Origin: Aquella oligotrophica
Lineage (GTDB): Bacteria; Pseudomonadota; Gammaproteobacteria; Burkholderiales; UBA11063
NCBI RefSeq assembly: GCF_002892535.1
Contig: NZ_CP024847.1
Span: 2,294,001 to 2,358,000 of the forward strand
Length of the DNA: 64,000 nt
Direction: 5' to 3'
The notes beneath the pieces were generated by a model. That model was not told the origin of the DNA and ran no database searches. It saw only the letters and a program-made list of their open reading frames with translations. The translations under genes were made by a program, and so were the position numbers. Below are positions 15,339 to 45,696 of this stretch, piece by piece (the first letter of the stretch is position 1; every line of letters starts with the position of its first letter).

Positions 15339-16232
15339 TTAACTAAAAAGCTCAAGAAACCCCTCTAGTTCATCAACGCTTGCATAATTAATCGTGATTT
15401 TGCCATGTCCACCACGATTATGTTTGATATTAACCATCATGCCAAGTTTATCGGCAATAGTTTCTTCTAATCTTGCAATATCTGGATCTTTTTTAGTTTT
15501 ATCACGAATAATCTCAGTCCCAAATTTTTGTTCGTGCAAGATTCGTGAGACTTTATTTTCAACTTCGGCGGTAGTATATTTTTTGAGAATTATTTCATTA
15601 GCTAATTCAAGCTGTTTTTCCATAGATAGCGGCAATAATGCTCTGGCATGCCCCATGTCCAGTTTACGTTGCATAAGATAATCCAGTACTTCCGGACTAA
15701 GGTTTAATAAGCGTAAGATATTTGAGATATTACTACGTGACTTACCAGTAACACTAGCTAAAGCTTCGTGAGTTAGACCAAATTCATCAATCAACCTTTT
15801 ATAGCCCTGAGCCTCTTCAACAATATTCAGGTCTTTACGCTGAATATTCTCAATCAGAGATACGGCTAGTGCCTCTTCATCACTAAAATCACGGACAATA
15901 GCCGGAATAACTTCAAGCCCAGCAATCTGACTTGCCCGCCAGCGCCGTTCACCAGCAATTAACTCGTAGCGATCTTTGCCAACTAATCTAACTATTACTG
16001 GCTGAATTAGTCCATTATGCCGAATTGACACCGCTAACTCTTCCAAATCTTCCTGATCAAAAACCTGCCTTGGCTGATATTTACCAGGCTGAATCTTATC
16101 AATTTTAAGTTCGGTAAGTCCACTTTGATTAGTTACTACCTCGGAGGTATCTTTTTGCTTGATATCAATATCAGCCTTTGCTGCTGATAATAATGCATCA
16201 AGACCACGTCCTAATCCTTTTACTTTTGCCAT
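15339..16232 (-). CDS. parB: Chromosome partitioning protein ParB
   Basis: A 297-residue ParB/Spo0J protein. It has the N-terminal KGLGRGLDALLS, the CTPase/nuclease-like domain with IQPGKYQPRQVF and GERRWRASQIAG, the HTH (LTHEALASVTGKSRSNISNILRLL) and a C-terminal dimerisation domain. It binds parS near the origin, slides as a CTP clamp and works with ParA. The gene is 9 bp downstream of parA. I did not find a full 16-bp parS site by eye in the window. Confidence 0.96.
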   Translation of the reverse strand: MAKVKGLGRGLDALLSAAKADIDIKQKDTSEVVTNQSGLTELKIDKIQPGKYQPRQVFDQEDLEELAVSIRHNGLIQPVIVRLVGKDRYELIAGERRWRASQIAGLEVIPAIVRDFSDEEALAVSLIENIQRKDLNIVEEAQGYKRLIDEFGLTHEALASVTGKSRSNISNILRLLNLSPEVLDYLMQRKLDMGHARALLPLSMEKQLELANEIILKKYTTAEVENKVSRILHEQKFGTEIIRDKTKKDPDIARLEETIADKLGMMVNIKHNRGGHGKITINYASVDELEGFLELFS

Positions 16233-16241
16233 ATAATTTCT

Positions 16242-17006
16242 CTATTTTAGCTTATTTAATAACTCTTTGGCACAACGAATGTATGCCTGTGCACCAACTG
16301 ACTCAGAATCCAAAGCAACTGCAGATAATCCATAGCTTGGTGCTTCTGCCAAGCGTACTGTCCTTGGAATACTAGCATAAAAGACTTTTTCGTCAAAATA
16401 CTCAACCAACTGTGCTGAAACCTGCTGGGCAAGATTATTTCTCTTATCATACATCGTCCGGATAATGCCTAATAACTGAAGTTCTGGATTTAATTTTGAC
16501 TGGATTCTGGCAATCGTATTTAATAAGTCGGTAAGCCCTTCTAATGCATAATATTCACACTGTAAAGGTACTAGAATATGCTTTGCTGCAGATAACGCAT
16601 TTATTGTCAGTAAACTTAATGATGGCGGACAATCAATCAATATAACATCATAATTTGCAGCAACTTTACTTAGTGCATTCCGTAGCCGAAATTCACGATT
16701 ATCCAGATCTACCAACTCAATTTCTGCACCAGCAAGATTACGATTTGCACCAAGAAGATCAAAACCACATTCTTTCGCTGCAACAGTAGCTTCTGAAACT
16801 GGAACATCATTAATCAGAACATCATAAACACTATACTTTAAATTATTTTTATCAACCCCAGCACCAGTAGTTGCATTGCCCTGTGGATCGATATCAACAA
16901 CCAACACCTTTTTTCTGAATAAAGATAAACTGGTAGCAAGATTAAGGACAGTAGTAGTTTTCCCTACACCACCCTTTTGATTTCCGACAACAATAATATT
17001 TTTCAT
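16242..17006 (-). CDS. parA: Chromosome partitioning ATPase ParA
   Basis: A 254-residue ParA/Soj ATPase with the deviant Walker A KGGVGKTTTVLNLA (about residues 11-24), the VDIDPQGNATTG motif and the Walker B ILIDCPPSLSLLT. It forms nucleoid-bound dimers that move ParB-parS complexes. The start overlaps the rsmG stop by 4 bp (ATGA), giving translational coupling in the rsmG-parA-parB order common near bacterial origins. Confidence 0.97.
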   Translation of the reverse strand: MKNIIVVGNQKGGVGKTTTVLNLATSLSLFRKKVLVVDIDPQGNATTGAGVDKNNLKYSVYDVLINDVPVSEATVAAKECGFDLLGANRNLAGAEIELVDLDNREFRLRNALSKVAANYDVILIDCPPSLSLLTINALSAAKHILVPLQCEYYALEGLTDLLNTIARIQSKLNPELQLLGIIRTMYDKRNNLAQQVSAQLVEYFDEKVFYASIPRTVRLAEAPSYGLSAVALDSESVGAQAYIRCAKELLNKLK

Positions 17007-17617
17007 AATTTTTTTATTTTCACCAATACGCGTGGTGCATCAAGATATGGCACCTGCAAATTAATAATTTCACTAGAATAATTATTTAATTTATCAGCCT
17101 CATTTGAAGCTTGCTGTGATTTCATCGCTAAATAGTAGCCTGAATCATTTAATAAATGCTCAGTGAGCGAGATAAAAAGGCTTAAATCCGCAAATGCTCG
17201 CGAGGTAATGATATCAAACCGTTGTATATCATATTTCTCTACCCGGCTATTTACAATTTCAAGATTGGCTAATCTAAGTTCTATCTTTACTTGCCGCAAA
17301 AAAGCAATTTTCTTCGAATTACTATCAATCAAAGTAACATGAAGATTTGGTTTCATTATAGCAATAATTATACCTGGAACACCCATCCCACTACCAACAT
17401 CAAGCACAAAGCCGTTATTATCTGGCAAATGCGGAACGATACTTAGCCCATCAATCAGATGGAGTATCTTAATCTGACGAGGGTTACTAATAGCTGTAAG
17501 ACTATATACTTTATTCCATTTTATAAGCATGCTTGCGTATTGATTTAATGCAGATAATTGATTCTCAACAAATTCAATCCCTAGCTTATGAATAGCATCA
17601 ATAATAATATCAGTCAA
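17003..17617 (-). CDS. rsmG: 16S rRNA (guanine-527-N7)-methyltransferase RsmG
   Basis: 204 residues of the GidB/RsmG family: the N-terminal KWNKVYSLTAI, then SAM motif VLDVGSGMGVPGI (about residues 69-81), LIDSNSKKIAFL and a late ITSRAFADL. It methylates G527 of 16S rRNA. The gene is coupled to parA by a 4-bp overlap. Confidence 0.95.
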   Translation of the reverse strand: MTDIIIDAIHKLGIEFVENQLSALNQYASMLIKWNKVYSLTAISNPRQIKILHLIDGLSIVPHLPDNNGFVLDVGSGMGVPGIIIAIMKPNLHVTLIDSNSKKIAFLRQVKIELRLANLEIVNSRVEKYDIQRFDIITSRAFADLSLFISLTEHLLNDSGYYLAMKSQQASNEADKLNNYSSEIINLQVPYLDAPRVLVKIKKL

Positions 17618-29199: not shown

Positions 29200-29487
29200 A
29201 TGAACAAGGCAGAACTAATTGAAGCGATAGCAAAAAAAGCAGACATTTCTAAAGTAAAAGCTGGTGAAGCTATTGATGCTTTTGTAGATAGTGTAACTGC
29301 AGCACTAAAATCTGGTGATACAGTAACTCTAGTTGGTTTTGGTTCATTCTCTACTGCTGCTCGTGCTGCTCGTGTTGGTCGCAACCCTAAAACAGGTAAA
29401 GAGATCAAGATTGCAGCAACGGTTACTCCTAAGTTTAAACCAGGTAAATCTTTGAAAGAAGCTGTTGCATCTGGGAAAAAGAAATAA
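29200..29487 (+). CDS. hupB: DNA-binding protein HU
   Basis: 95 residues from the ATG at 29200 with TTGGAG six bp upstream. It begins [18 protein letters not shown] and contains the DNA-binding arm [18 protein letters not shown] followed by TGKEIKI and PKFKPGK, the HU/IHF signature. It is a histone-like nucleoid protein. The gene is monocistronic: strong promoter upstream and a strong terminator downstream. Confidence 0.98.
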
Positions 29488-33016: not shown

Positions 33017-36000
33017 TTAACCACGTAAATGACTTAATAATTCAGCAATCCGGGCTATATCATTAATAGAACCACTACTATCTATAAACTCAAAGTAATC
33101 CTCAGCAATTGATGAGAAAATAATGTCCTCACGCAAACCATCTAGCTCAAAATTATTAAAATCAACCAAATATTTAGCTTTTGCAAGTCGCAGGCAATCT
33201 TCACGGGTGTTTTTGAGGTTTCCTTTCCTATCAACTTCGCTAATTCTTTTCGCATATTCAGCAATTGCTGACTTATGAATTAATACTGGATATGTCAAAC
33301 TTCTCAAATAATACTTAATAACCATATCAAAAAGACTTGATGATTCCTGTACATACACAGGAAAGTTACGAATTTCAGCATTATTACGGATCAGCCTGAT
33401 TATTACACTATCTGGCTTGATTCCAGCGTCAAATTTAACATCACATTGCAACAAAAGACCACAAATTAATGCCCGGATTTTCAACGAATAGCTAACCTCT
33501 TCCAGCTTAGTGGGTAATTCCCGATCACTAATCTGCTCAAATCCTGGAGTAATTATTATTGCATTACCTTCGACAAATACCTCATCCTGAAGTATAATGT
33601 CAATGGTTTCCTCGCCCTTAGTCACAGGGTACTCAAGATAAAATTTGTTTAAGCTATTTCCGCAATTTGCTTTATATAATTGGTAAATTCTAGCATAATA
33701 ATCAAACTGTAATTTTCCGATATGATCATATGCAAGAACTCCTTTTGCCTGCAAATATTCAGACAACTCTGATAATGATGCCTTTTGCAAATAACATTCA
33801 AAAAATTTAAATATTTCTTTAGCCAGATTACGATCAAAAATAGCGATACTTTCTCTATCCTCCAGCTCAATTTCATTGATGAAAGTATTGATTCCCAATG
33901 TCCGATATAAGTTTCGATTGGAATAACAAAAAGTCGCAACCAGATCGACTAATTTTGGCTGGTATAAAATCTGCTTTTGTTCACTAGTAAGACTAATTTG
34001 TTGAGTTCCACTAAATTCCCAACGCAAATTTTGTGCTTTTTCTGTAGTAATTCTAGCTAATTTTTGCCAAAATTCCGAATAATTGAAGCTATGGTTATTA
34101 TAAAACGGATGCAATGAGTGCTGATAAATAATATTTCTGTAATTATACCTAGGCTTCATAGGATCTCCCTCATCCCAGAAATTAGTAAAACTTTGCCCCA
34201 AAACATTCATGAATAAACTCAATATCGGTGAGGGCTTAATTTCACTGTTGTCAGTTTCTTTTCGCCCAATATAGCTAATAATCAACCGCTCGCGTGCAGA
34301 AAGTATTGTATCCAGAAAAGCTTGCTTATCCTCAATATTATAGTTACGATCAGCAAGATGCCACTCTTTGGCAAGGATACTTAACTGATTAGGTTGATAA
34401 ATTGCTGGAAATTCACCAAAATTAAGCCCCAACATATAAATTACCCGATGGGGAATATTTCGCATATACTGTAATGAAGCACAGGTAATTTTACTCTCAA
34501 AACGGATTTTATTCTTAATTTCAGACATATAATCATCAATTATCTGATTGACAATTAAAAGGTTTATTTTAATCTCTGAATTAATATCCAGTATTGAGCC
34601 GATAAATTTATTTAATAATAGTCCTGATTCAGGATTATTTAATAATTGCTCTTGTAATAAAGCAAAAACCTCATGTAGCTCGTCAATTGAAAACTCACGA
34701 TACAAGTTATGTTCAAGATAAAGGAATTCCCGGATCCTGAATAAAAGATCAATTAACCCAATCAGCTTACTACATAATTCAATTTGCCCACTATCAATAT
34801 TGTCATAAGGCACCACGACCACTTCTGCAAACCGATAAAGGGGAACATGATTAGCTGAAATCAGCACATCTTCACTAAGACAAGCACCACTAACAATATT
34901 TTGCAATAAAGTCTTAAAACTATGTACCGAAAAATTTTGATAACCATAAGGTTCGTAATCTTTTTCATTAAAACCAAAATTAACCCGGTTATCAATAAAC
35001 CAGCCTTTTATTGTCTCAATATCATCATTATCAAGAAAAAGACTATCCCTTATTTCTGTCTGCATCAATAACTCAAGCAGATAATTAACTGGCAATTGAT
35101 AAGGCAAATTTAACAGTAACTTCAAGGTTTCAAGAACCTTGTAATCACCTTGCTCACGATGCCCGGTTATATGATATGGAATCTTCAGATGAATGCCAGA
35201 TGAAGTATAAGCCGTTTCATTATCAAATACTGCTCGAATATATGTAGCATAGTCATCTATATCCGGTGCTGTAATAAGAATATCTTGAGGTATAATTCCG
35301 GAACCGTCAGACAGAATATCAGATAGCTCATTAAAAAGAACCTGTACTTCACGCATCCTGTTATGACAGATATTTATCTTAATGCTTGTTTTACCATTAG
35401 GGAGATCAGAAACACATTCATCAGATCCAGAAAGTAGTTTGACTGGATCCATATAAAACAGATTATCTTTACTCAAACGATATTCATTTCGTACCCGATA
35501 CTTTAGATTACGAATGTCATCCTGAATGATCTCAAGCATTGTAGCTGCTTGCTTTTTTTCACTGAATTCAGTATTAAAGCTGTAAACTTCAACATCATTA
35601 GCCCGAAGTAATTCAATAAATTCTCGCGACTGCTGCCCAAGATTTGCCAGTAGTGGATTACCATCGAGCAGATATAAATCATCCAGACTCAAATCAGGCT
35701 TACGAAGCAATTTCTGCTCAAGGCTTGAGCGAGCTTTTGTAGATAAAAGGTCTCCATAATACTCATACGAGCACGGCTGATAGTACCAGTAAACAGGAAT
35801 CTTCTGGCTAATTTTGATAATTATTTCAAGCTGCGACGGATATACCGAAGTTAGACCAAACAGATACAGACGTTCTGGTAGTTTGAGAGAATTATCATTT
35901 AAATCAAGCTGAATGAAATATTGATAAATATCTATAAATAATTTCCGACTGCCAATAGAATCAGATAAGTGTCTAAATATCTGTTTCTGCCAGTGAGGTA

Positions 36001-36502
36001 ATTTTGCCTTTTCAAGATGAATTAATTCATGTGTTCGTAAATAAAGATACTCGTGAAAAATTTGTTGTAACTGGCTTGCCAACTGGTAAGCCCTGAATTT
36101 ATTAATCACTCCATCAACTATTATATAATTTTTTAACTCTTCAGATTCTTCTAAATCATCAAAACTGGTATTTAATAAATATTCGTAAATAATAAAGCGC
36201 GATTGTCTAAAATCAAATAATTGGGCATCAGGATTATTCTCAAGATAAATATTTTCAAGTACCGTACCAACAAGTACCACAAAATCAAGATTAGCCGAGA
36301 TTCCATCAGCTTTAGTCACCCGATCACGTAGATATACGGCAAAAGCATGATTGGGTACAATTACTTGTAATTTGCTAAAAATACTACTACGCCTAGACTC
36401 ACTCAGATGTGCATAAAAAATATCAAATAAGCCCGGAGATATGTTTTCCTCTCCAAGCTGACTACTTTGAAAAAACATTATATTATTAGAAATTTTTTCC
36501 AT
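33017..36502 (-). CDS. recC: RecC subunit of the RecBCD exonuclease
   Basis: About 1160 residues. The N-terminal region MFFQSSQLGEENISPGLFDIF, the IVPNHAFAVYLRDRV segment, NICHNRMREVQVLFNEL, HVITGHREQ-like HITGHREQGDYKVLETL and MRNIPHRVIYMLGLNFGEFPA are typical of RecC, which recognises Chi sites in the RecBCD double-strand-break repair helicase-nuclease. The frame extends to a GTG at 36544, but the ATGs at 36502 and 36478 suit the family start better. recB and recD are not adjacent in this window. The upstream region is the DnaA-box cluster. Confidence 0.9.
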   Translation of the reverse strand: MEKISNNIMFFQSSQLGEENISPGLFDIFYAHLSESRRSSIFSKLQVIVPNHAFAVYLRDRVTKADGISANLDFVVLVGTVLENIYLENNPDAQLFDFRQSRFIIYEYLLNTSFDDLEESEELKNYIIVDGVINKFRAYQLASQLQQIFHEYLYLRTHELIHLEKAKLPHWQKQIFRHLSDSIGSRKLFIDIYQYFIQLDLNDNSLKLPERLYLFGLTSVYPSQLEIIIKISQKIPVYWYYQPCSYEYYGDLLSTKARSSLEQKLLRKPDLSLDDLYLLDGNPLLANLGQQSREFIELLRANDVEVYSFNTEFSEKKQAATMLEIIQDDIRNLKYRVRNEYRLSKDNLFYMDPVKLLSGSDECVSDLPNGKTSIKINICHNRMREVQVLFNELSDILSDGSGIIPQDILITAPDIDDYATYIRAVFDNETAYTSSGIHLKIPYHITGHREQGDYKVLETLKLLLNLPYQLPVNYLLELLMQTEIRDSLFLDNDDIETIKGWFIDNRVNFGFNEKDYEPYGYQNFSVHSFKTLLQNIVSGACLSEDVLISANHVPLYRFAEVVVVPYDNIDSGQIELCSKLIGLIDLLFRIREFLYLEHNLYREFSIDELHEVFALLQEQLLNNPESGLLLNKFIGSILDINSEIKINLLIVNQIIDDYMSEIKNKIRFESKITCASLQYMRNIPHRVIYMLGLNFGEFPAIYQPNQLSILAKEWHLADRNYNIEDKQAFLDTILSARERLIISYIGRKETDNSEIKPSPILSLFMNVLGQSFTNFWDEGDPMKPRYNYRNIIYQHSLHPFYNNHSFNYSEFWQKLARITTEKAQNLRWEFSGTQQISLTSEQKQILYQPKLVDLVATFCYSNRNLYRTLGINTFINEIELEDRESIAIFDRNLAKEIFKFFECYLQKASLSELSEYLQAKGVLAYDHIGKLQFDYYARIYQLYKANCGNSLNKFYLEYPVTKGEETIDIILQDEVFVEGNAIIITPGFEQISDRELPTKLEEVSYSLKIRALICGLLLQCDVKFDAGIKPDSVIIRLIRNNAEIRNFPVYVQESSSLFDMVIKYYLRSLTYPVLIHKSAIAEYAKRISEVDRKGNLKNTREDCLRLAKAKYLVDFNNFELDGLREDIIFSSIAEDYFEFIDSSGSINDIARIAELLSHLRG

Positions 36503-36633
36503 AAAATTTGCCCGAAACGTTGATTTTATTATCAAGTTATCCACCGCTTATTTGTCAAGAAATATTTTAAATTATTTTTTAGCTTGACTTTTTGCAACAT
36601 ATTGTTATATTTAATTTTTTAGCACATTAAAAG

Positions 36634-36727
36634 TTATCAACAGATCAAACAAAACCTTGTTATAACAAGGAATAGAGCCAAATAAAAAATAATTATCCAC
36701 AGAGATATCCACAGCTTTTGTGGATAA
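36634..36727. other. Cluster of DnaA boxes (possible origin or DnaA-binding regulatory site)
   Basis: Within 94 bp there are two perfect 9-mers TTATCCACA (36693-36701 plus; 36719-36727 minus), one near-match ATATCCACA (36705-36713) and one TTATCAACA (36634-36642). A further variant, TTATCCACC, lies at 36537-36545. The boxes are next to a very AT-rich tract (about 36555-36632), which could be an unwinding element, and a perfect palindrome. A plus-strand TTGACT-16-TATATT pair lies at 36584-36611. The arrangement resembles bacterial oriC, and parAB-rsmG is 20 kb away. dnaA, dnaN or rpmH are not in the window, so a DnaA-titration or regulatory site is equally possible. Confidence 0.5.
36655..36670. 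repeat. Perfect 16-bp palindrome inside the DnaA-box cluster
   Basis: CCTTGTTATAACAAGG is a perfect 16-bp palindrome between the TTATCAACA box and the first TTATCCACA box. It is too short for a terminator with no loop, and suits a dimeric DNA-binding protein. Confidence 0.55.
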
Positions 36728-36771
36728 ACAAAAAAAACCGAAGTATCTGGTAACTTAGCTACATTTATACC

Positions 36772-37338: not shown

Positions 37339-40072
37339 ATGAAAATCTGTTATAATAATATGGATTTAATATTTTCATTTTATTTAATAAAATTAATAAA
37401 AACTTATCCCTACCCCCACTTATTTTATTTGCATTTGCCCTAATTGGCTGTAGCCAAGGTGGTACTTCAAATAATACCAACTATTCCAATATTGAATCAT
37501 TGGAAATAATAACTCCATATATACTACCAAATTCAAATACGAATAATGGCAAAGTTAATGCTGTTGTATTTAATCCAACAAATTATGAAATTACAAATCT
37601 TCAATATCATATAGATACAAGTATTGCATCTGGCTCTGAGGCTATTATTGAATCAGACAGCATAAAAAAATGCTCAAGAATACAAGCTTACTCAAGCTGC
37701 ACACTAACTTTTGAAATTAATAAAGGAAGCACTGCTGGAGCATTTAGCATAAGCGTTAGTAGCGGTCAGTTATCAAGCGCTAAAAAATCAACCACAACAA
37801 AAACATCTCTGTTAATTGGTATCCAACCTAGTATTCAGAATTCATATACCGGACCAAATGGAATAACGATTTATTACTACAACAAAATCTTAAATTCAAA
37901 TAAGTACATTATAGTATCAGGCATTATTGGGTCATTAAATACTGGAATATTAAACCAGATAACTTTAGTTGATAAAAACAATCAACCATTACCAAATCAG
38001 TATCCAATTAGTAATAATCTAATCAATCACCAACAGTTACAATTGGGTGATACATTCTCAATTATGATGACACTACCACAGTCAGTGCAAGAATTAGACT
38101 TCAATATTCAGACGTCTGAAGTATCAATGACTGGGGAAGTTTCAAATATTCAAACTGGCTCAATCACATATCAGTTAAAAACTGTTACTAATGAAGCAAT
38201 ACTTTTTAGCTACCCCGCTGTTCTAAACCTAACAGAAGAATACCCTTCTCAACCATTAGCATTAGCAAACATAGGAAACCAAGAAGCAACACAACTTGCA
38301 TTACTTTCAAATAGCCCAAATATTATAATTCAATTCGCTACTGGCAACCTTTTTCCATATGAATATGGCTTGGCACAAATTACACTTACCCCACCAAATA
38401 CTCCTACAGCAATAACATCTCTAACAACAATTTATAATAATGGACAAAATACTGTTGAAGAAAAAATCCCGGTTACAGAAAATATCACACCAACTCCTAC
38501 ACCAACTCCTACACCAACTCCTACACCAACTCCTACACCAACTCCTACACCAACTCCTACACCAACTCCTACACCAACTCCTACACCAACTCCTACACCA
38601 ACAGTATCTGCGACTTTATCAAGTAAATCGGATGGAACACCAACAATTAATTCAATATCAAATGCCATAGTATTCTATGCTGTATTTAATTTATCAACCC
38701 AAATTGCAATAGGAACACAAACCTATCGGATAAATTCACTACCTAGCAATATGTATTTTATTAATGGTAATAGTTGTCAGCTAAGCTTTGTTTCACCTAG
38801 CTGTTATATTGCAATCAACTCCGGCACTGTAGCTGGAGACTATACAATTTCTTTCTCAACAACGGGGGAAGTCTCGCCAACACCAGCTAGTACAGATATT
38901 ACTGTATTTTTAAATAAAGTTAATGTTCAATCGGCATTCTATCAAACTAGTGCACTTGATACAAACAATGTTCCCTACTGGTGGGGATGGACAATATCAA
39001 GCAGTCAAGCAAATCCGGATTTAACACCCGAAGCAGTCGATACAAACATGAAATTTAGTATAATATCATCCCGATATGGTCATATTTGTGGAATAAATTT
39101 AATTGATAATCTAACCTATTGTTGGGGAAATGGTAAAGATGGATCGCTTGGATTACCTAACAATAGTAACCTAGCTTTTCCCACTTCACCTGTTCAGGGA
39201 AATCATACTTTCACAAATATCTCGGCTGGATACCGCCAATCTTGTGGCATAGATACAAACAATAACGGATGGTGCTGGGGTAAGAATAACTGTGGTCAAT
39301 TGGGAAATGGTCAAACACCAACTGAAGGACTATATAATTCAATTCCACAGTTAGTGAGTGGGAATCATCAATTTGTTACGGTTTCAGCCGGGCAATACTT
39401 TAGTTGCGGAATAGATAACTCAGGCACTGCTTGGTGCTGGGGTGCTCAATATGGCGGTGATCTTGGCAATGGTCAGAATAGTGAGCAATATCTATCATCT
39501 CCCCAGCAGGTATTAAGCGGAGCTACAAAATTTCAAATGATTGTAACATCAGGTGCTAGCTCATATGGACCATCTAATCCAAGCTGCGGAAGTGGCCATA
39601 CATGTGCTATTGATACAACAGGAAAGGCGTGGTGTTGGGGAATAAATTCCACTGGGCAACTTGGTAACAACACACTAAATAATAGCAGTACACCACAGAG
39701 TGTCTATTCAACAAGAAAATTTATTGACATTACTGCGGGAAGTAACTATACATGTGCAATATAGATACCACATATCACGCGTGGTGTTGGGGAAGTAATC
39801 AGTATGGGCAACTTGGAAATGGAACGCTTTTATCATCAAATATACCTATTGCTGTCGCCGGAGACATTTCTTTTAAAATGATAAGCGCTTCTTCAACAGC
39901 TAACACCTGTGGTGTATCAACTGATAATAAAGTATACTGCTGGGGAAATAATGAATATGGACAGCTAGGAATAGATCAAAAGGGAGATTACAAAACAACA
40001 CCTCAAATTGTCGAAGGTGCAATCAATCAAGATGAAGCAACAACACGATATAAAAATAAAGCCCGTAAATAA
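37339..40072 (+). pseudogene. RCC1-repeat lipoprotein, apparently frameshifted twice
   Basis: The long open part (37500-39764) and a short tail (39752-40072) form one protein of about 900 residues. Upstream, LILFAFALIGCSQGG encodes a lipoprotein signal in the long part's frame, but no ATG is in that frame; ATGs at 37339 and 37360 are one base out, joined by losing one A in the A5 run at 37398-37402. The long frame stops at 39762-39764 where ATATA replaces the ATA seen in sister repeats, and the next frame continues the repeats. Domains: an N-terminal region shared with the 46.3-kb lipoprotein, a Pro-Thr linker and six or seven RCC1-type blades (CGIDTNNNGWCWG...GQLGNG). Probably a surface beta-propeller; phase variation or sequencing error are alternatives to a pseudogene. 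Confidence 0.7.
38490..38600 (+). repeat. 12-bp tandem repeat (Pro-Thr linker)
   Basis: Nine perfect copies of CCAACTCCTACA (38490-38597) plus a partial unit, encoding alternating Pro-Thr. Because the unit is a multiple of three, copy-number change alters linker length without breaking the frame. Confidence 0.95.
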
Positions 40073-40079
40073 CAGAAAT

Positions 40080-41024
40080 TTATATTCTGGATATTTGACT
40101 TCTATATTTTGAAATACACCAAATAATAAGACACCAAACAACAATAGCAATGCCGATTTGTTCCGAATAAGCATCTAGAAAATCACTGCCTTTGGCAAGA
40201 ATCTTGCTAATCCCGAAACTGCTAGTAGCCATGAAACTAGCTAACTCAAAGAAACCAACAATAAATGCCAGTATTGCAGTTGAGAAAAGCATAATCCGGT
40301 TATAGATTAATAATTTTTGCTGATTAGTATTAAAACTTCCATATAGCTTGGAAATAAAGATACTATCAAATGAATCGGTAAGTATCATGCCACTAGCAAA
40401 AGAAATCGGTAGTAACATGATGCTCCAAATAGAAATACCACTTAAAGCTGAGCTAGCTGCAATACCAAGTAAGGCAATCTCGGTAGCAGTATCAAAGCCA
40501 AGTCCAAAGAGAAAGCCAACCAAGTACATTTTTAATGGACGATCAACAAGATTTAGAATTTTCCGCGTAAGAAAACTCATTATCCCACCAGCGGGTGGAT
40601 GATTATGCGAATGACTTGAAGCATGAAATAAAGACCTTAAATTCATGAATCCAGTTAAAAACAGAAAAGTAGCCGAAATAACCGTACCTATTATGCCACC
40701 ATAATCGCCAATATTTCCCAATGAACCTTTAAATTGAATAACCCCAAGCACTATTAATAAAGTAAGTACAAAAACAATTGTCGAATGCCCAAGAGCAAAA
40801 AATAAGCCTGTTGTATAGCTTTTTCGATTCTCTGAATTGAATTTCCGGGTGATATTATCAATTGCGACGATATGATCAGCATCAAATCCATGACGTAACC
40901 CAAGGGTAAAAGCAATAAACACCAGTGATAACAGCTTTACATTACCGAGTGTAACGGTTAAATTAAGTAACCATACCGCTAAAGTAATTACACCAAGGAG
41001 TAAAAGTAGTTTTTTTGCCGACAT
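40080..41024 (-). CDS. Nickel/cobalt permease of the NiCoT/HoxN family
   Basis: 314 residues, about eight membrane helices. The signature RHGFDADHI (about residues 44-52, the HX4DH motif) and LGHSTIVF are typical of NiCoT transporters. A His-rich loop (ASSHSHNH) follows the fourth helix. It imports Ni2+ or Co2+ across the inner membrane. It is the last gene of the hydrogenase operon (12 bp after the maturation protease), so nickel for the active site is the likely cargo. It converges with the RCC1 gene. Confidence 0.9.
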   Translation of the reverse strand: MSAKKLLLLLGVITLAVWLLNLTVTLGNVKLLSLVFIAFTLGLRHGFDADHIVAIDNITRKFNSENRKSYTTGLFFALGHSTIVFVLTLLIVLGVIQFKGSLGNIGDYGGIIGTVISATFLFLTGFMNLRSLFHASSHSHNHPPAGGIMSFLTRKILNLVDRPLKMYLVGFLFGLGFDTATEIALLGIAASSALSGISIWSIMLLPISFASGMILTDSFDSIFISKLYGSFNTNQQKLLIYNRIMLFSTAILAFIVGFFELASFMATSSFGISKILAKGSDFLDAYSEQIGIAIVVWCLIIWCISKYRSQISRI

Positions 41025-41036
41025 TTGTCTGATTCT

Positions 41037-41513
41037 TTATAAATGAAGCTCTGGATCAACCAAGATTTTTTGAGAAACTTGAGAAACTCCAGTTAGAATA
41101 GCTTGGGAAACTTCACTTTCAGGCGAAATTAACGAACCTTCAATTCCCCAAAATTCAACATTATCAATATTAATCCCAAGCTCTTTAGCTAATGCCAATG
41201 AAGCCGAAACACCCAGACTATGACTAGATAGCATGCCACTAAAACCGATAATCTCGTTCGCCTGTAATTTATAAATACTACCAGGAATCTTGAGATTCGT
41301 TTTAACCATATCAATTAAAATAATTCTTTGATAATCACCAAGTAGCCAGTTTATCAGATTAATTCCGGGACGATCAGCGACTTCAAGGGTCAGAAGATTT
41401 TTTGCAACCATTTCTCTGATTGTAGGAACTTGCTCCAATTCCTCCACTACCAGCCAACCAGCCCTATCATCACCAAAGGGTGAACCAATCCCAAGGATTA
41501 AAGTTTTTATCAT
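41037..41513 (-). CDS. [NiFe]-hydrogenase maturation protease
   Basis: 158 residues of the HycI/HyaD family: LILGIGSPFGDDRAGW (metal-binding Asp region), the second acidic site in IILIDMVKT and LSSHSLGVSAS with a His ligand. It trims the C-terminal tail of the hydrogenase large subunit after nickel insertion. It overlaps the large-subunit gene by 4 bp, which fits its substrate; the large subunit ends DPCISCSAH plus nine further residues that would be cut off. Confidence 0.9.
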   Translation of the reverse strand: MIKTLILGIGSPFGDDRAGWLVVEELEQVPTIREMVAKNLLTLEVADRPGINLINWLLGDYQRIILIDMVKTNLKIPGSIYKLQANEIIGFSGMLSSHSLGVSASLALAKELGINIDNVEFWGIEGSLISPESEVSQAILTGVSQVSQKILVDPELHL

Positions 41514-42814
41514 TGGCGCGTAATATTAAGCGTTAAAAAATGAGCAGAGCAAGAAATACACGGATCATAATTCCGGATAACCATTTCGGCATGGAGGCGT
41601 AATTCATCATCTGGTTTATCTAAGCCAAATGTCTCCAAGGACGAGCGTAAATTTGCTTCGATACATGGCAAATTCTGCGAAGTTGGTGCAGAAATTCTGA
41701 TTGCCGTGGCATAACCGCGCTCATCAAGCTGCACATGATCAATCTGGATTCCACGTGGCGCTTCAACAGCACCCCAAGCATTGGCAGCTTTTGGCGTATA
41801 TTCTAGCGCAGGTTTATCAGTATAGGTATAGTTACGGCAAATTTCAAGCGCGCGTTCAATTGCCCAATAGCCTTCTATCGAGCGAGCAATTATTGAATGA
41901 AACATATTGCGGCTTGGCCATTTGATTCCAGTAGCATTTGCCATTTCCTGAATATGTGGAGGCAAACGATCAAAATTAAGGTTAATCCGCGATAAAGGTC
42001 CAAACAAAATTGGTTCACCAGCAATTGTTGTTGAATGTAGTGCAGTTGACTGACGAGCATGAAACTCACGAAAATGCTCATCATAATCATTGATATTAAA
42101 CGTTTCGCCATCACTGGTAATAACTTCTGTTGCGAAAACGGGATACTCGGTCGGATGACGGAGACTAACCATTTTAAATGGAACTTCAGCATCAGGAAAC
42201 GGCAATTGACTAAACCATTCAACAACATCCTTTGCATCTTTCAATGCAGCTTCGAGCTTCGGAATCAATACCGCAACTTCTTCTTCACGCGGTGCACGAT
42301 AAAATCCACCAACTTTCATGCCATTTGGATGAACTGAACGCCCACCAAGAAGTTTAAGGATTTCATTTCCCAAATGCTGTAATCGGACACCACGGAGTAC
42401 CTCATTTGGATAATCTTTTGCCATCTCAATGCCAGAACGATAATTAAGAAAATCAGGTGCAGCCAGTAAATGAGTGTGTAAATAATGTGATTCAATCCAT
42501 TCACCAAGAAACATCAATAAGCGCATATCATGAATCCACGGTGTCAATTCAACCCCAAATGCAGCTTCATAAGCATTCGAAAATCCAGCCTGATAAGCTA
42601 ATGGGCAAATTCCGCAAATCCGGGCAACCGCATCAATCACTTCATTTGGTTCACGCCCTTCAAGAAATTTCTCAAAATAACGTGGTGGCTCATAAATCCT
42701 CAATTCACACTTGGTGATTTTACCAGCCGTAATTTCCAGATCAAGTGCCCCCTCACCTTCTACCCGGGCAAGAATTGGAACTTCAATTTTGGTAGTGCGA
42801 TTTTCAACGTTCAT
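41510..42814 (-). CDS. hydA: [NiFe]-hydrogenase large (alpha) subunit, group 3b type
   Basis: 434 residues with both nickel-binding motifs: N-terminal RICGICPLAY (about residues 64-73) and C-terminal DPCISCSAH, plus EGEGALDLEI and RSVHPNGMKVGG. It holds the NiFe(CN)2CO centre. The short length, the FAD/NADP and double-ferredoxin partners upstream, and the motif variants fit the bidirectional soluble group 3b (sulfhydrogenase-type) enzymes. A 95-bp gap separates it from the small subunit. Confidence 0.94.
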   Translation of the reverse strand: MNVENRTTKIEVPILARVEGEGALDLEITAGKITKCELRIYEPPRYFEKFLEGREPNEVIDAVARICGICPLAYQAGFSNAYEAAFGVELTPWIHDMRLLMFLGEWIESHYLHTHLLAAPDFLNYRSGIEMAKDYPNEVLRGVRLQHLGNEILKLLGGRSVHPNGMKVGGFYRAPREEEVAVLIPKLEAALKDAKDVVEWFSQLPFPDAEVPFKMVSLRHPTEYPVFATEVITSDGETFNINDYDEHFREFHARQSTALHSTTIAGEPILFGPLSRINLNFDRLPPHIQEMANATGIKWPSRNMFHSIIARSIEGYWAIERALEICRNYTYTDKPALEYTPKAANAWGAVEAPRGIQIDHVQLDERGYATAIRISAPTSQNLPCIEANLRSSLETFGLDKPDDELRLHAEMVIRNYDPCISCSAHFLTLNITRQ

Positions 42815-42909
42815 AATTTTTTACCTAATCTATGATAATTATTTATATAAAGTATCCACTATAACTGCATCGGAATATGAAGCCATTAACAAGGGGCAAG
42901 GTGACGCAG

Positions 42910-43731
42910 TTATTGCGAGATAGTCCGAGCAACTACTCCATGAAATGTTATTGCTTGACTATTAATATGATGAAATTTATGCTTAATTTGTTCATCACTT
43001 AGTCCCATTTCCTTTAATTTGGCTATCATTGCATCCATATTGGCATATTTCGCTGGTCCATAACAACCATAACAACCACGTCCAAGCTTTGGACATATCG
43101 CATCACAGCCATCAGCAACCACCGGACCAAGGCACGGTTCATTCTTGGCAACCATCACACAAGTAACTCCAGCATGCTTACAGGTAGTGCAGACTGGATC
43201 AACATTTTTTTCTGGTTCAACGCCAAAAAGTATTTGACGAATCGCCCGTAAAATCTGCCCAGTATTAATTGGACAACCCGGTAATTCAAAATCAACCTTA
43301 ACATAAGCGCTAATTGGTTTGGCGGTTGCTAAATCACCCTCAATAATTACCTCAGTCTCTTCAGGGTAAACATCATGTTGCCAATGGCGTAATTCTTTCT
43401 CATCGGTAAAATTGCGTAGAGCTTGTATCCCACCGGTCAAGGCGCAGGCACCAACGGAAAGGACATATTTAGCTTTAGCGCGCACCATTTCAATTCTATG
43501 CACATCATGGTGGGTATTTACGCTACCCTCGATTATCGCCAGATCAACTTCAGCAAACTCATCTAGTGGTCCTGCTTCGGCAAAATGAACAATATCAACC
43601 ATCGTTGCCAATTCAAGTAAAGACACCGCATCATTAATCAATGCTAGCTGACAGCCATCACAAGAGCTAAACTTATGCACTGCTATTTTGGGACGCTTTG
43701 CAAAGTTTATTAATTTATCAGGCGTTGACAT
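42910..43731 (-). CDS. hydD: [NiFe]-hydrogenase small (delta) subunit, group 3b type
   Basis: 273 residues with the Fe-S cluster motifs of hydrogenase small subunits: SSCDGCQLAL near the N-terminus, LSVGACALTGG, PGCPINTGQIL and the C-terminal group CTTCKHAGVTC, CLGPV, DGCDAICPKLGRGCYGCYG. There is no Tat signal, as expected for a cytoplasmic enzyme. It carries electrons between the active site and the gamma/beta subunits. The start is 1 bp from the gamma gene stop. Confidence 0.93.
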   Translation of the reverse strand: MSTPDKLINFAKRPKIAVHKFSSCDGCQLALINDAVSLLELATMVDIVHFAEAGPLDEFAEVDLAIIEGSVNTHHDVHRIEMVRAKAKYVLSVGACALTGGIQALRNFTDEKELRHWQHDVYPEETEVIIEGDLATAKPISAYVKVDFELPGCPINTGQILRAIRQILFGVEPEKNVDPVCTTCKHAGVTCVMVAKNEPCLGPVVADGCDAICPKLGRGCYGCYGPAKYANMDAMIAKLKEMGLSDEQIKHKFHHINSQAITFHGVVARTISQ

Positions 43732-43732
43732 C

Positions 43733-44611
43733 TTATAATCCTTTCACGGCAAGGAGTTTTTCACAAGCTGGGTATGGATACACAGCACCATCCTTACAGA
43801 TAAATTGCGAACCAAGCTGACAATGCCCACAGTGTCCAATTGCGCATTTCATACTCCGCTCAAGACTGACAAATACATTATCCGGCTTAGCGCCAGCTTT
43901 GATAAACTCCTTGGCAACCGCCAACATCATTGGCTCTGGACCTACTGTCATTACCACACTATTGGCAAAATCAATATCAAGCTCAGGGATATAGGCTGTC
44001 ACAAAACCTTTTTTCCATTCCCATTTACCATTATCTACTGGATCTTCGGCGCTTGTTGCCATCATTACTTTGGTATCTGGAGAATTATGCCAGCGTTCAT
44101 ACATATCCTGATAAATTAGCCAATCCTGACTTTTAATTCCATGAATTACCCTTAATTTACCGTATTGATTGCGATTTTGTAAAACTTCCTCGGTTGCTGC
44201 CACCAAAGGTGCATTACCAAGCCCGCCAGTCACAATTACCACATCCTTACCCTTAGCCTCAGCCATTGGCCAGCTGGTACCAAATGGTCCGCGGACGCCA
44301 ACTTTATCGCCAGTTTGAAGTTTCATCATTCCCTTAGTTACTCGTCCAACAACCTGTATTGTATGCTCAAACCGTCCTTTTTGGTGATCGCGGTCATTTA
44401 CAATCGAAATAGCAACTTCGCCAACACCATAAAAGTAAATCATATTAAACTGTCCGGGACGAAATGAATATTTGCTATCAAGTTCAGGATCAGTAAATTT
44501 TAAACGAATAGTAAAAATATCGTGGTGATCTTTTATAAATTCAACAATTTCTGCTTCATGCGGGGTATAGGCATCATTGGTATATAGCATAATCTTCTCT
44601 CTTATTTGCAA
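43733..44611 (-). CDS. hydG: Hydrogenase gamma subunit, FAD/NAD(P)-binding
   Basis: 292 residues of the ferredoxin-NADP reductase fold: FSFRPGQFNMIY-like FAD region, VVIVTGGLGNAPLV for NAD(P) and a C-terminal [2Fe-2S] motif CAIGHCGHCQLGSQFIC. In group 3b hydrogenases this subunit exchanges electrons with NAD(P)H. It overlaps the beta-subunit gene by 10 bp. The start follows the conserved order beta-gamma-delta-alpha. Confidence 0.93.
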   Translation of the reverse strand: MQIREKIMLYTNDAYTPHEAEIVEFIKDHHDIFTIRLKFTDPELDSKYSFRPGQFNMIYFYGVGEVAISIVNDRDHQKGRFEHTIQVVGRVTKGMMKLQTGDKVGVRGPFGTSWPMAEAKGKDVVIVTGGLGNAPLVAATEEVLQNRNQYGKLRVIHGIKSQDWLIYQDMYERWHNSPDTKVMMATSAEDPVDNGKWEWKKGFVTAYIPELDIDFANSVVMTVGPEPMMLAVAKEFIKAGAKPDNVFVSLERSMKCAIGHCGHCQLGSQFICKDGAVYPYPACEKLLAVKGL

Positions 44612-45696
44612 ATCGTGTTGATTTCATCAACCACATCAATTTTAACTGGACACCAAGTTACACAACGCCCACAACCAACACAACCTTTGGTTCTAAATTG
44701 GTCACGCCAAGTTGAGAATTTATGGGTTAACCATTGACGATAACGATATTTAGGGTTTTCGCGGTAAGTTTCGCCATGAGTGTAGCTATGATCAATGCTA
44801 AAGCATGAATCCCATTCCCGCGTGTGTTCGGTTTCAGTACCCAGTACGTTTGGAATATCTCGTTCAGTATGGCAAAAGCAGGTTGGGCAGGAATTAGTAC
44901 AACTACCGCATGACAAACAACGGCTGGCAACATCATCCCACGCCTCATGTTCAAGATTTGCCATTAGCTTAGCTTCCACCTCTTTAATTGGCGGCAATTG
45001 CTTATGCTGCATTTGTGCGGCATTATCAATTAAATTAAGCGCATGCTCTACTTCTGCACCAGTTGCAGCATCAACTTCAAGATACAATAATAATTCACGA
45101 CCTTTATCCGAACCAATCTCGGCAACAAATCCAGCATTAATCTCGGTTAATGCCAAATCATACCCCTTATCTGCTCGTGGATAATCACCTAACGCCACAC
45201 AAAAACAGTTAAAATGTGAAGTACCACAATTCATCGCAATAATAAACTGATTCTCACGCCGTTTACTATAACGAATATCATTATATGAATTATGCTGAAA
45301 TACCCGATCTTGAATCTCTATTCCACGTAAATCACACGGTCTAACACCAAATACAGCTATTTTTTCGACATCCACAACCGACTCAAAAGCAAGCTTGCCA
45401 GAATCATCACGCTTTACTTTCCAAACCGTTTCTTTTGCCTTAAATAGCATGGGCTTAACCGATGCTGTCGGTACAGTAAAGCCAAATGCCTGCGGACTCT
45501 CCGTTTTTGTGATTTGATAATGCCCCGGCTTTTGTTCATCAACATAGCCCCATGGCAGATCTTCTGCCTTACTGATTGGCGCATAACTGATACCGCCTTC
45601 AAGATGGCGTGGCGCGAGACATTTATAGCCATTTCCCTTGAAGTAGCTAAGTATCTGATCAATTTTGGTATGTGGAATAAAGTAATAATGACTCAT
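44602..45696 (-). CDS. hydB: Hydrogenase beta subunit, iron-sulfur
   Basis: 364 residues: a long N-terminal domain with FGVRPCDLRGIEI and NCGTSHFNCFCVALGD, then two [4Fe-4S] motifs, CLSCGSCTNSCPTC (about residues 260-273) and CVGCGRCVTWCP (about 340-351). It matches the beta subunit (HydB, anaerobic sulfite reductase A-like) of group 3b hydrogenases. It is the first gene of the operon. Confidence 0.93.
   Translation of the reverse strand: MSHYYFIPHTKIDQILSYFKGNGYKCLAPRHLEGGISYAPISKAEDLPWGYVDEQKPGHYQITKTESPQAFGFTVPTASVKPMLFKAKETVWKVKRDDSGKLAFESVVDVEKIAVFGVRPCDLRGIEIQDRVFQHNSYNDIRYSKRRENQFIIAMNCGTSHFNCFCVALGDYPRADKGYDLALTEINAGFVAEIGSDKGRELLLYLEVDAATGAEVEHALNLIDNAAQMQHKQLPPIKEVEAKLMANLEHEAWDDVASRCLSCGSCTNSCPTCFCHTERDIPNVLGTETEHTREWDSCFSIDHSYTHGETYRENPKYRYRQWLTHKFSTWRDQFRTKGCVGCGRCVTWCPVKIDVVDEINTICK

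Follow-up and report, generated by a model that had tools for sequence, protein, structure and literature searches.

An intergenic site adjoining recC in the betaproteobacterium Aquella oligotrophica P08 carries three DnaA boxes in the order, orientation and spacing of the core of the E. coli DARS elements, and we consider it highly probable that the site is a DARS-type element (DnaA-reactivating sequence), closest in plan to E. coli DARS2. The array is conserved in the genus, the same layout recurs in beta- and gammaproteobacteria, and the site lies away from the replication origin. By analogy with DARS2, its most likely function would be to recharge ADP-DnaA with ATP. A. oligotrophica P08 is placed in the family Neisseriaceae, with tap water as its source, in PMC6612550. 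The genome is one chromosome of 2,820,660 bp, and the window referred to throughout is the whole 64-kb stretch analysed, chromosome positions 2294001-2358000.

Anatomy of the site

A previous sequence-only reading of the window had noted five DnaA boxes in an AT-rich, gene-free stretch with a perfect palindrome and had put the site forward as a possible oriC. The five boxes, each with at most one mismatch to TTATCCACA and two of them perfect, do lie within 191 bp (36537-36727), in a stretch that is 74% AT compared with 63% window-wide. In 100 first-order Markov copies of the window the densest 191 bp held one box (24 copies), two (72) or three (4) and never more, against five in the real sequence, so the clustering is beyond chance; the window as a whole has 31 such boxes compared with a mean of 23 in the copies. 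The features of the site are listed below in window coordinates, with distances given from box III.

33017..36544, minus strand: recC (exodeoxyribonuclease V gamma subunit); Pfam PF04257 above cut-off, NCBIfam recC at 340 bits, below the cut-off of 583
36537..36545, plus strand: distal DnaA box IV, TTATCCACC, at -156 and about 35 bp before the likely recC start
36554..36588, no strand: GTCAAG, AT-rich tract and CTTGAC block, from alignments of recC leaders and P08 copies
36595..36607, minus strand: IHF-like site, TAACAATATGTTG, one mismatch, at -98
36634..36642, plus strand: extra weak box, TTATCAACA, at -59
36655..36670, no strand: perfect 16-bp palindrome, CCTTGTTATAACAAGG, a terminator-like hairpin on the minus strand
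36693..36701, plus strand: DnaA box III of the DARS-type core, TTATCCACA, perfect; order and gaps as in E. coli DARS1
36705..36713, plus strand: DnaA box II of the core, ATATCCACA, 3 bp from box III
36719..36727, minus strand: DnaA box I of the core, inverted, TTATCCACA, perfect, 5 bp from box II
36728..36760, no strand: A-tract and ACTTAG block outside box I, from alignments

The description of the stretch as gene-free holds if recC starts at the ATG at 36502; it fails if the recC open reading frame is read from its GTG start, which reaches 36544 and runs over the first box. Comparison with the starts in relatives makes the ATG the likelier start, and the box at 36537 would therefore fall in the recC leader. 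The promoter scan returned 8 matches, where shuffles averaged 7.7. One of them, on the plus strand at 36584-36611, overlaps the GTCAAG/CTTGAC block and is not above chance; none lies on the minus strand between the core and recC, and we therefore claim no recC promoter.

The blocks outside the boxes are kept to differing degrees. CTTGAC is retained in all eight aligned recC leaders and GTCAAG in three of the eight, while the three copies of the module in the P08 genome (see below) all have GTCAAG, two having CTTGAC and the third ATTGAC. ACTTAG is present in all three P08 copies and, for the most part, in relatives. The weak box at -59 recurs at the same place, among the genus rows examined, in G019 alone, where it is perfect. 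The palindrome is indeed perfect, 16 bp long and at 36655-36670; it was rejected as a conserved operator, since an alignment of the eight recC leaders keeps only a loose dyad.

Within the window no RNA families were found at gathering cut-off, and no tRNA or tmRNA. Beyond the site, 37500-40072 encodes an RCC1-repeat protein with a long Pro-Thr repeat, in which the open reading frames 37500-39764 and 39752-40072 look like one gene split by a frameshift. It is followed at 40080-45696 by genes for a NiFe hydrogenase large subunit and a nickel transporter (both scanned), whose neighbours look like a hydrogenase cluster.

The three-box core

The boxes at 36693, 36705 and 36719 match the order, orientation and gaps of the E. 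coli DARS1/DARS2 core (>N3>N5<). The definition of DARS is taken from passages of PMC5742627 and PMC4245941, the former giving the core as three boxes with box I opposite and the same spacing at DARS1 and DARS2. Cores were scored by the mismatches in their 24 constrained positions, each box being compared with TTWTNCACA, and the window core has one. The same scan found E. coli DARS1 at 813141, upstream of uvrB, with two mismatches, and DARS2 at 2969169 with three; the letters of boxes III and II at both sites agree with the DARS1 and DARS2 entries in Table 1 of PMC11317965. The best scores at E. coli datA (6) and oriC (8) are within the random range, in which the best score of 300 random 850-bp pieces of the P08 genome ran from 6 (12 pieces) to 11.

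The spacing was also searched with free gaps (0-15 and 0-20 bp) in 370 genomes of the class that are at least 90% complete. This yielded 27 exact triples from 24 genomes, and gaps of 3 and 5 bp account for 24 of the triples (21 genomes). These counts are no estimate of site frequency, because they cover exact matches only and miss the window core, which has one mismatch. The other three triples had gaps of 3/19, 1/3 and 9/8, and the reversed-pattern control, with free gaps in the same 370 genomes, gave none. P08 itself has three cores (reversed control, none), the other two at 286.7 and 531.2 kb. All three are copies of one module, and the other two do not face recC.

These scores bear on a datA-like site, one at which binding of DnaA and IHF leads to ATP hydrolysis or to titration. 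Both datA, with the box layout 7-2-IHF-3, and the P08 site combine DnaA boxes with an IHF or IHF-like site, and the boxes of the P08 site stand on both sides of its IHF-like match as they do in datA. A box pair 3 bp apart is present in E. coli datA too (PMC11317965). Yet in datA the core place lacks an inverted box I (6 mismatches at best), whereas the window site has the DARS core, and a passage of PMC5742627 names the head-to-head contact of boxes I and II as a prominent DARS feature. We therefore judge a datA-like function to be quite improbable.

Position on the chromosome

The dense boxes, AT-rich tract and gene-free stretch are what would be expected to draw attention to an origin, but the headline proposal of oriC did not survive comparison with the skew, the parS-like sites and dnaA. 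In sampled stretches the GC skew is negative throughout 1.69-2.70 Mb, window included, and on to 0.16 Mb, so that both sides of the site have the same negative sign; most stretches between 0.35 and 1.5 Mb are positive, two near-zero ones being the exceptions. In contiguous sequence it goes from -0.24 to +0.15 at 161 kb, with mixed signs at about 180-300 kb, and the turn is thus at 161 kb and not at 2,330 kb. The dnaA gene is at 208-210 kb. A genome search with a 16-mer that we take to be parS gave four sites with at most two mismatches, at 164228 (one mismatch) and at 160434, 723367 and 1053834 (two each), compared with one for the control. Two of the four, the best one included, flank 161 kb, and none is near the site. 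In the 1.053 Mb examined, the DnaA-box cluster that ranks first by weighted score is at 161387-161566, with the site second.

Since the skew turn, two parS-like sites, dnaA and a separate box cluster all fall at 160-210 kb, the skew is negative on both sides of the site and the three P08 copies are dispersed, we give next to no credence to the site as chromosomal oriC or as a second or former origin. It is intergenic and lies between oriC and the terminus, at 2330.5-2330.7 kb. The distance to 161 kb is about 651 kb, or 0.46 of the left replichore. The P08 oriC candidate has a best score of 8 mismatches against the DARS core.

The rsmG-parA-parB block that had been read as an origin-proximal marker is present, at window 15339-17617; it stands about 670 kb from the skew-defined origin, which two of the four parS-like 16-mers, the best among them, flank. 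Elsewhere in P08, two perfect TTATCCACA boxes lie 153 bp apart at 930482 and 930635, and no DARS core was found there.

Conservation in the genus

A core with at most two mismatches is present in 17 of 23 genus genomes, with no reversed-control match in any of the 23, and in 10 of the 11 that are at least 90% complete and at most 5% contaminated. At this threshold it was not found in the remaining 6 of the 23, several of them incomplete; G010 has one at three mismatches. Conservation in relatives, a check that had been proposed for the boxes, is borne out upstream of recC, where they recur as one rigid array in seven genomes, P08 included (G000, G019, G014, G022, G007, G005 and G011). The genome G002, in which the core is beside the same rhodanese-like gene as in G011 and recC is at a contig end, was left out of this count. 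G020 has a worn array upstream of recC, with four mismatches.

In six other genomes (G010, G012, G001, G016, G021 and G009) a core with 0-3 mismatches stands 170-193 bp away from where the xseA frame opens. As far as both leaders are readable, no genome has a core on both the recC side and the xseA side: the xseA leaders readable in six genomes of the recC set score 8-9 mismatches at best (in G007 over 245 bp only), and the recC leaders readable in four genomes of the xseA set score 9-10 (in G009 over 482 bp only). The module is recognisably the same in both places, blocks outside the boxes included, in a mixed-copy alignment that is rough.

The xseA-side cores (L218, L221, L222 and L214) lie between an AmiC-like amidase gene and xseA, and G017 has TsaE-like and amidase-like parts in one frame. 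The neighbourhood of E. coli datA reads queG-nnr-tsaE-amiB, and the neighbourhoods of datA and of the DARS-type site may share ancestry. In G015 a core with one mismatch (L213) is about 200 bp upstream of a RarA-like gene.

Spread and neighbouring genes

A scan of named genomes for the exact core returned at least 119 stretches. By record title, 26 among the 119 matches listed are betaproteobacterial (Nitrosomonas, Gallionellaceae, Neisseriaceae, Burkholderiales and others, some genomes being repeated), and the rest have mostly gammaproteobacterial or 'Proteobacteria' titles, with a few, assigned by title only, to Phycisphaerales, Acidaminococcus, Bacilli and Magnetococcales. Among the matches listed, 117 of 123 cores are outside open reading frames of at least 90 amino acids.

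A gene faces the core within 400 bp in 75 of the 119 listed loci. These genes form 49 clusters; one representative was scanned for each of 40, recC had already been identified, the other 8 were not included, and further members were joined by BLAST. Genes for replication or repair facing the listed cores are priA (16 loci), xseA (4), recC (3), rdgC (1) and dnaA (1). Many other facing genes at the listed loci are unrelated (glnS, citrate synthase, bipA, a TolQ-like gene and so on) or have no family match, and 32 of the 123 listed cores face no gene start. A rule that DARS cores sit upstream of repair genes is thus only partly borne out.

In the BLAST cluster whose scanned representative is priA the core is directly upstream of the gene in 16 of the 119 listed loci (for example L085, L094, L095, L099, L105 and L119), on the strand of the gene in the 14 read for orientation, with both beta- and gammaproteobacterial titles present. 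Cores are near dnaA in 2 of the 119 listed loci, about 400 bp upstream of a dnaA in L186 and 4 kb away in L203, so the core pattern is not wholly absent from origin regions. Two Nitrosomonas genomes have three exact cores within 0.7-4 kb (L129, 3202-7223; L163, 3301-4031). The exact core also occurs in 18 IMG/VR contigs (L273-L290), three of them of 133-152 kb; phages may carry or mimic the site, or these contigs may be bacterial.

The IHF-like site and the fourth box

Of the 123 cores in the at least 119 loci, 115 have 220-bp flanks and 114 have 260-bp flanks. The 114, mostly beta- or gammaproteobacterial, were used as anchors in a scan for further boxes and for WATCAANNNNTTR, which we take to be the IHF consensus. 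In these 114 listed cores, 30 perfect IHF matches stand at -97 to -99 on the opposite strand. A perfect IHF site lies at -110..-30 in 33 rows, compared with 4 rows for a stretch of the same length on the opposite side, and 100 shuffles gave a mean of 1.9 and a maximum of 6. A further box with at most one mismatch is at exactly -177 or -178 in 34 rows, against a mean of 0.3 per position and strand. Related species enter these counts separately, and the rows do not represent independent events. In the window the IHF-like site, a sequence match with one mismatch, stands at -98 and on the same strand as the IHF matches of the listed cores.

For the genus, 24 cores were compared, 23 with at most two mismatches and the one of G010. 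An IHF match with at most one mismatch stands at -97 to -101 in 11 of the 24 and was found in none of the other 13, which include the two other P08 copies. At that threshold P08 may therefore have one IHF-dependent site, as DARS2 is, and two without IHF, as DARS1. The distal box is more regular: between -151 and -179, on the same strand, 21 of the 24 have either TTATCCACA or TTATCCACC; in these two forms it is absent from 3. Since PMC4245941 gives the outer boxes IV-VI as dispensable in E. coli DARS2, the kept box IV would either be a difference from E. coli or serve recC.

The last point touches on an ordinary DnaA-controlled regulatory region, in which the double box and accessory boxes repress or activate recC (xseA in relatives) and nothing is recharged. 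In 13 genus genomes the module faces one of these two genes, box IV in the window stands immediately ahead of recC, and E. coli DnaA, according to PMC11317965, prefers box pairs 2-3 bp apart and controls several promoters through such pairs. This would leave unexplained why box I is inverted at a distance of exactly 5 bp, as in 24 of the 27 triples, and why the IHF site has a fixed distance. Nor does it account for the many listed cores beside unrelated genes or for the other two P08 copies, neither of which faces recC. We consider such a region, as the whole account of the site, unlikely. The earlier hedge that this might be a DnaA site of another kind, possibly tied to recC, was right in direction.

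Likeness to E. coli sites and protein partners

The P08 site and DARS2, which lies upstream of mutH at 2.969 Mb, have in common the order and gaps of the three core boxes, the side on which the IHF matches lie (that of box III), additional DnaA boxes past the IHF site, and a place in mid-replichore (0.46 in P08, about 0.41 for DARS2). DARS2 has two IHF matches, at -87 and -71, and the P08 site one IHF-like match at -98, about one helix turn off. The two in DARS2, 3 bp apart by sequence, fit IBS1-2, which a passage of PMC4245941 describes as 'separated by only 3 bp'. With one core mismatch against three, the P08 site is nearer the consensus. In E. coli recC is about 7 kb from DARS2; in P08, a betaproteobacterium, it adjoins the site and the core is in the opposite orientation to it. 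DARS1, upstream of uvrB at 0.813 Mb, has the same core and like the P08 site is upstream of a DNA-repair gene with box III nearest that gene, but no IHF match with at most one mismatch was found in the DARS1 stretch examined, whereas the P08 site has one. The tandem pair 3 bp apart is shared with the double DnaA box promoters of E. coli nrdA, polA and purH (PMC11317965); the P08 site has an inverted third box, of which the relevant passages of that paper make no mention for these promoters.

P08 encodes IhfA, which at 127 bits is above the NF001401 cut-off and below that of TIGR00987. It also encodes an IhfB-like protein, which scores 103 bits against a cut-off of 115, and an Hda-like protein with 150 bits against a cut-off of 195. 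Six PF00216 HU/IHF-like genes are present (L228-L233), one of them at window 29200-29487; one is the IhfA gene, one the IhfB-like gene and four look like HU, of which the two scanned are both below HU cut-offs. Fis was not found in the P08 genome with PF02954, the sole match being a 196-aa response regulator, whereas E. coli DARS2 needs Fis according to PMC4245941. P08 DnaA is identical to E. coli DnaA at 210 of 464 aligned residues and keeps D269, R281, R285, L290, R334 and T435; the R399 column of the alignment is uncertain, and the residue at E. coli Arg227 is Asn. The residues that DARS2 activity requires in E. coli DnaA are R227, L290, R399 and T435. In the one Nitrosomonas DnaA read (L203) the residue at Arg227 is His. 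As DnaA R227A and L290A are both reported to be severely impaired on E. coli DARS2, the change at R227 is a real point against a simple carry-over of the E. coli mechanism.

The reading of the site as DARS-type is further tempered by the failure to find Fis, by the one mismatch in the IHF-like match of the window together with the 13 of 24 genus cores that have none, and by the binding of E. coli DnaA to tandem boxes 3 bp apart at many promoters as well.

Proposed mechanism and implications

By analogy with DARS2, ADP-DnaA would assemble on the core, with the molecules on boxes I and II in head-to-head contact, and the DNA between the core and box IV would be bent by IHF. ADP would then be released, and apo-DnaA would leave and take up ATP, so that initiation at oriC (161 kb) would be timed from mid-replichore. 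More tentatively, DnaA bound at box IV, immediately ahead of recC, may reduce transcription of that gene. A double role in DnaA recharging and gene control has a precedent in E. coli, where DARS1 is overlapped by the uvrBp3 promoter and uvrB is repressed by DnaA (PMC6015884), but in P08 the promoter scan recognised none for recC.

The genes that bear on a wider link with repair are recC or xseA in the genus, xseA also in further betaproteobacteria, Nitrosomonas included, priA in both classes, and uvrB and mutH in E. coli. It is conceivable, though we think it somewhat doubtful, that DARS is an old element common to beta- and gammaproteobacteria. It would have a single layout, with the distal box between about -151 and -179 and the IHF site near -98 ahead of the core, and would have stayed in the leaders of genes for recombination, repair and fork restart or passed from one such leader to another, so that DnaA recharging and DNA repair would read the same nucleoprotein switch. 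A passage of PMC4245941 describes the DARS2 core as conserved specifically in gammaproteobacteria related to E. coli, and we found no paper on DARS in betaproteobacteria in the open-licence literature searched.

Sites of the same layout occur across two large bacterial groups in which such switches are little described. If they work, the recharging arm of the DnaA cycle would be much older and wider and would be possible without a recognisable Fis. The layout would then provide a pattern for finding such sites in unstudied bacteria, its natural variants would help to dissect the mechanism, and there would be a testable link between the control of initiation and recC, xseA and priA.
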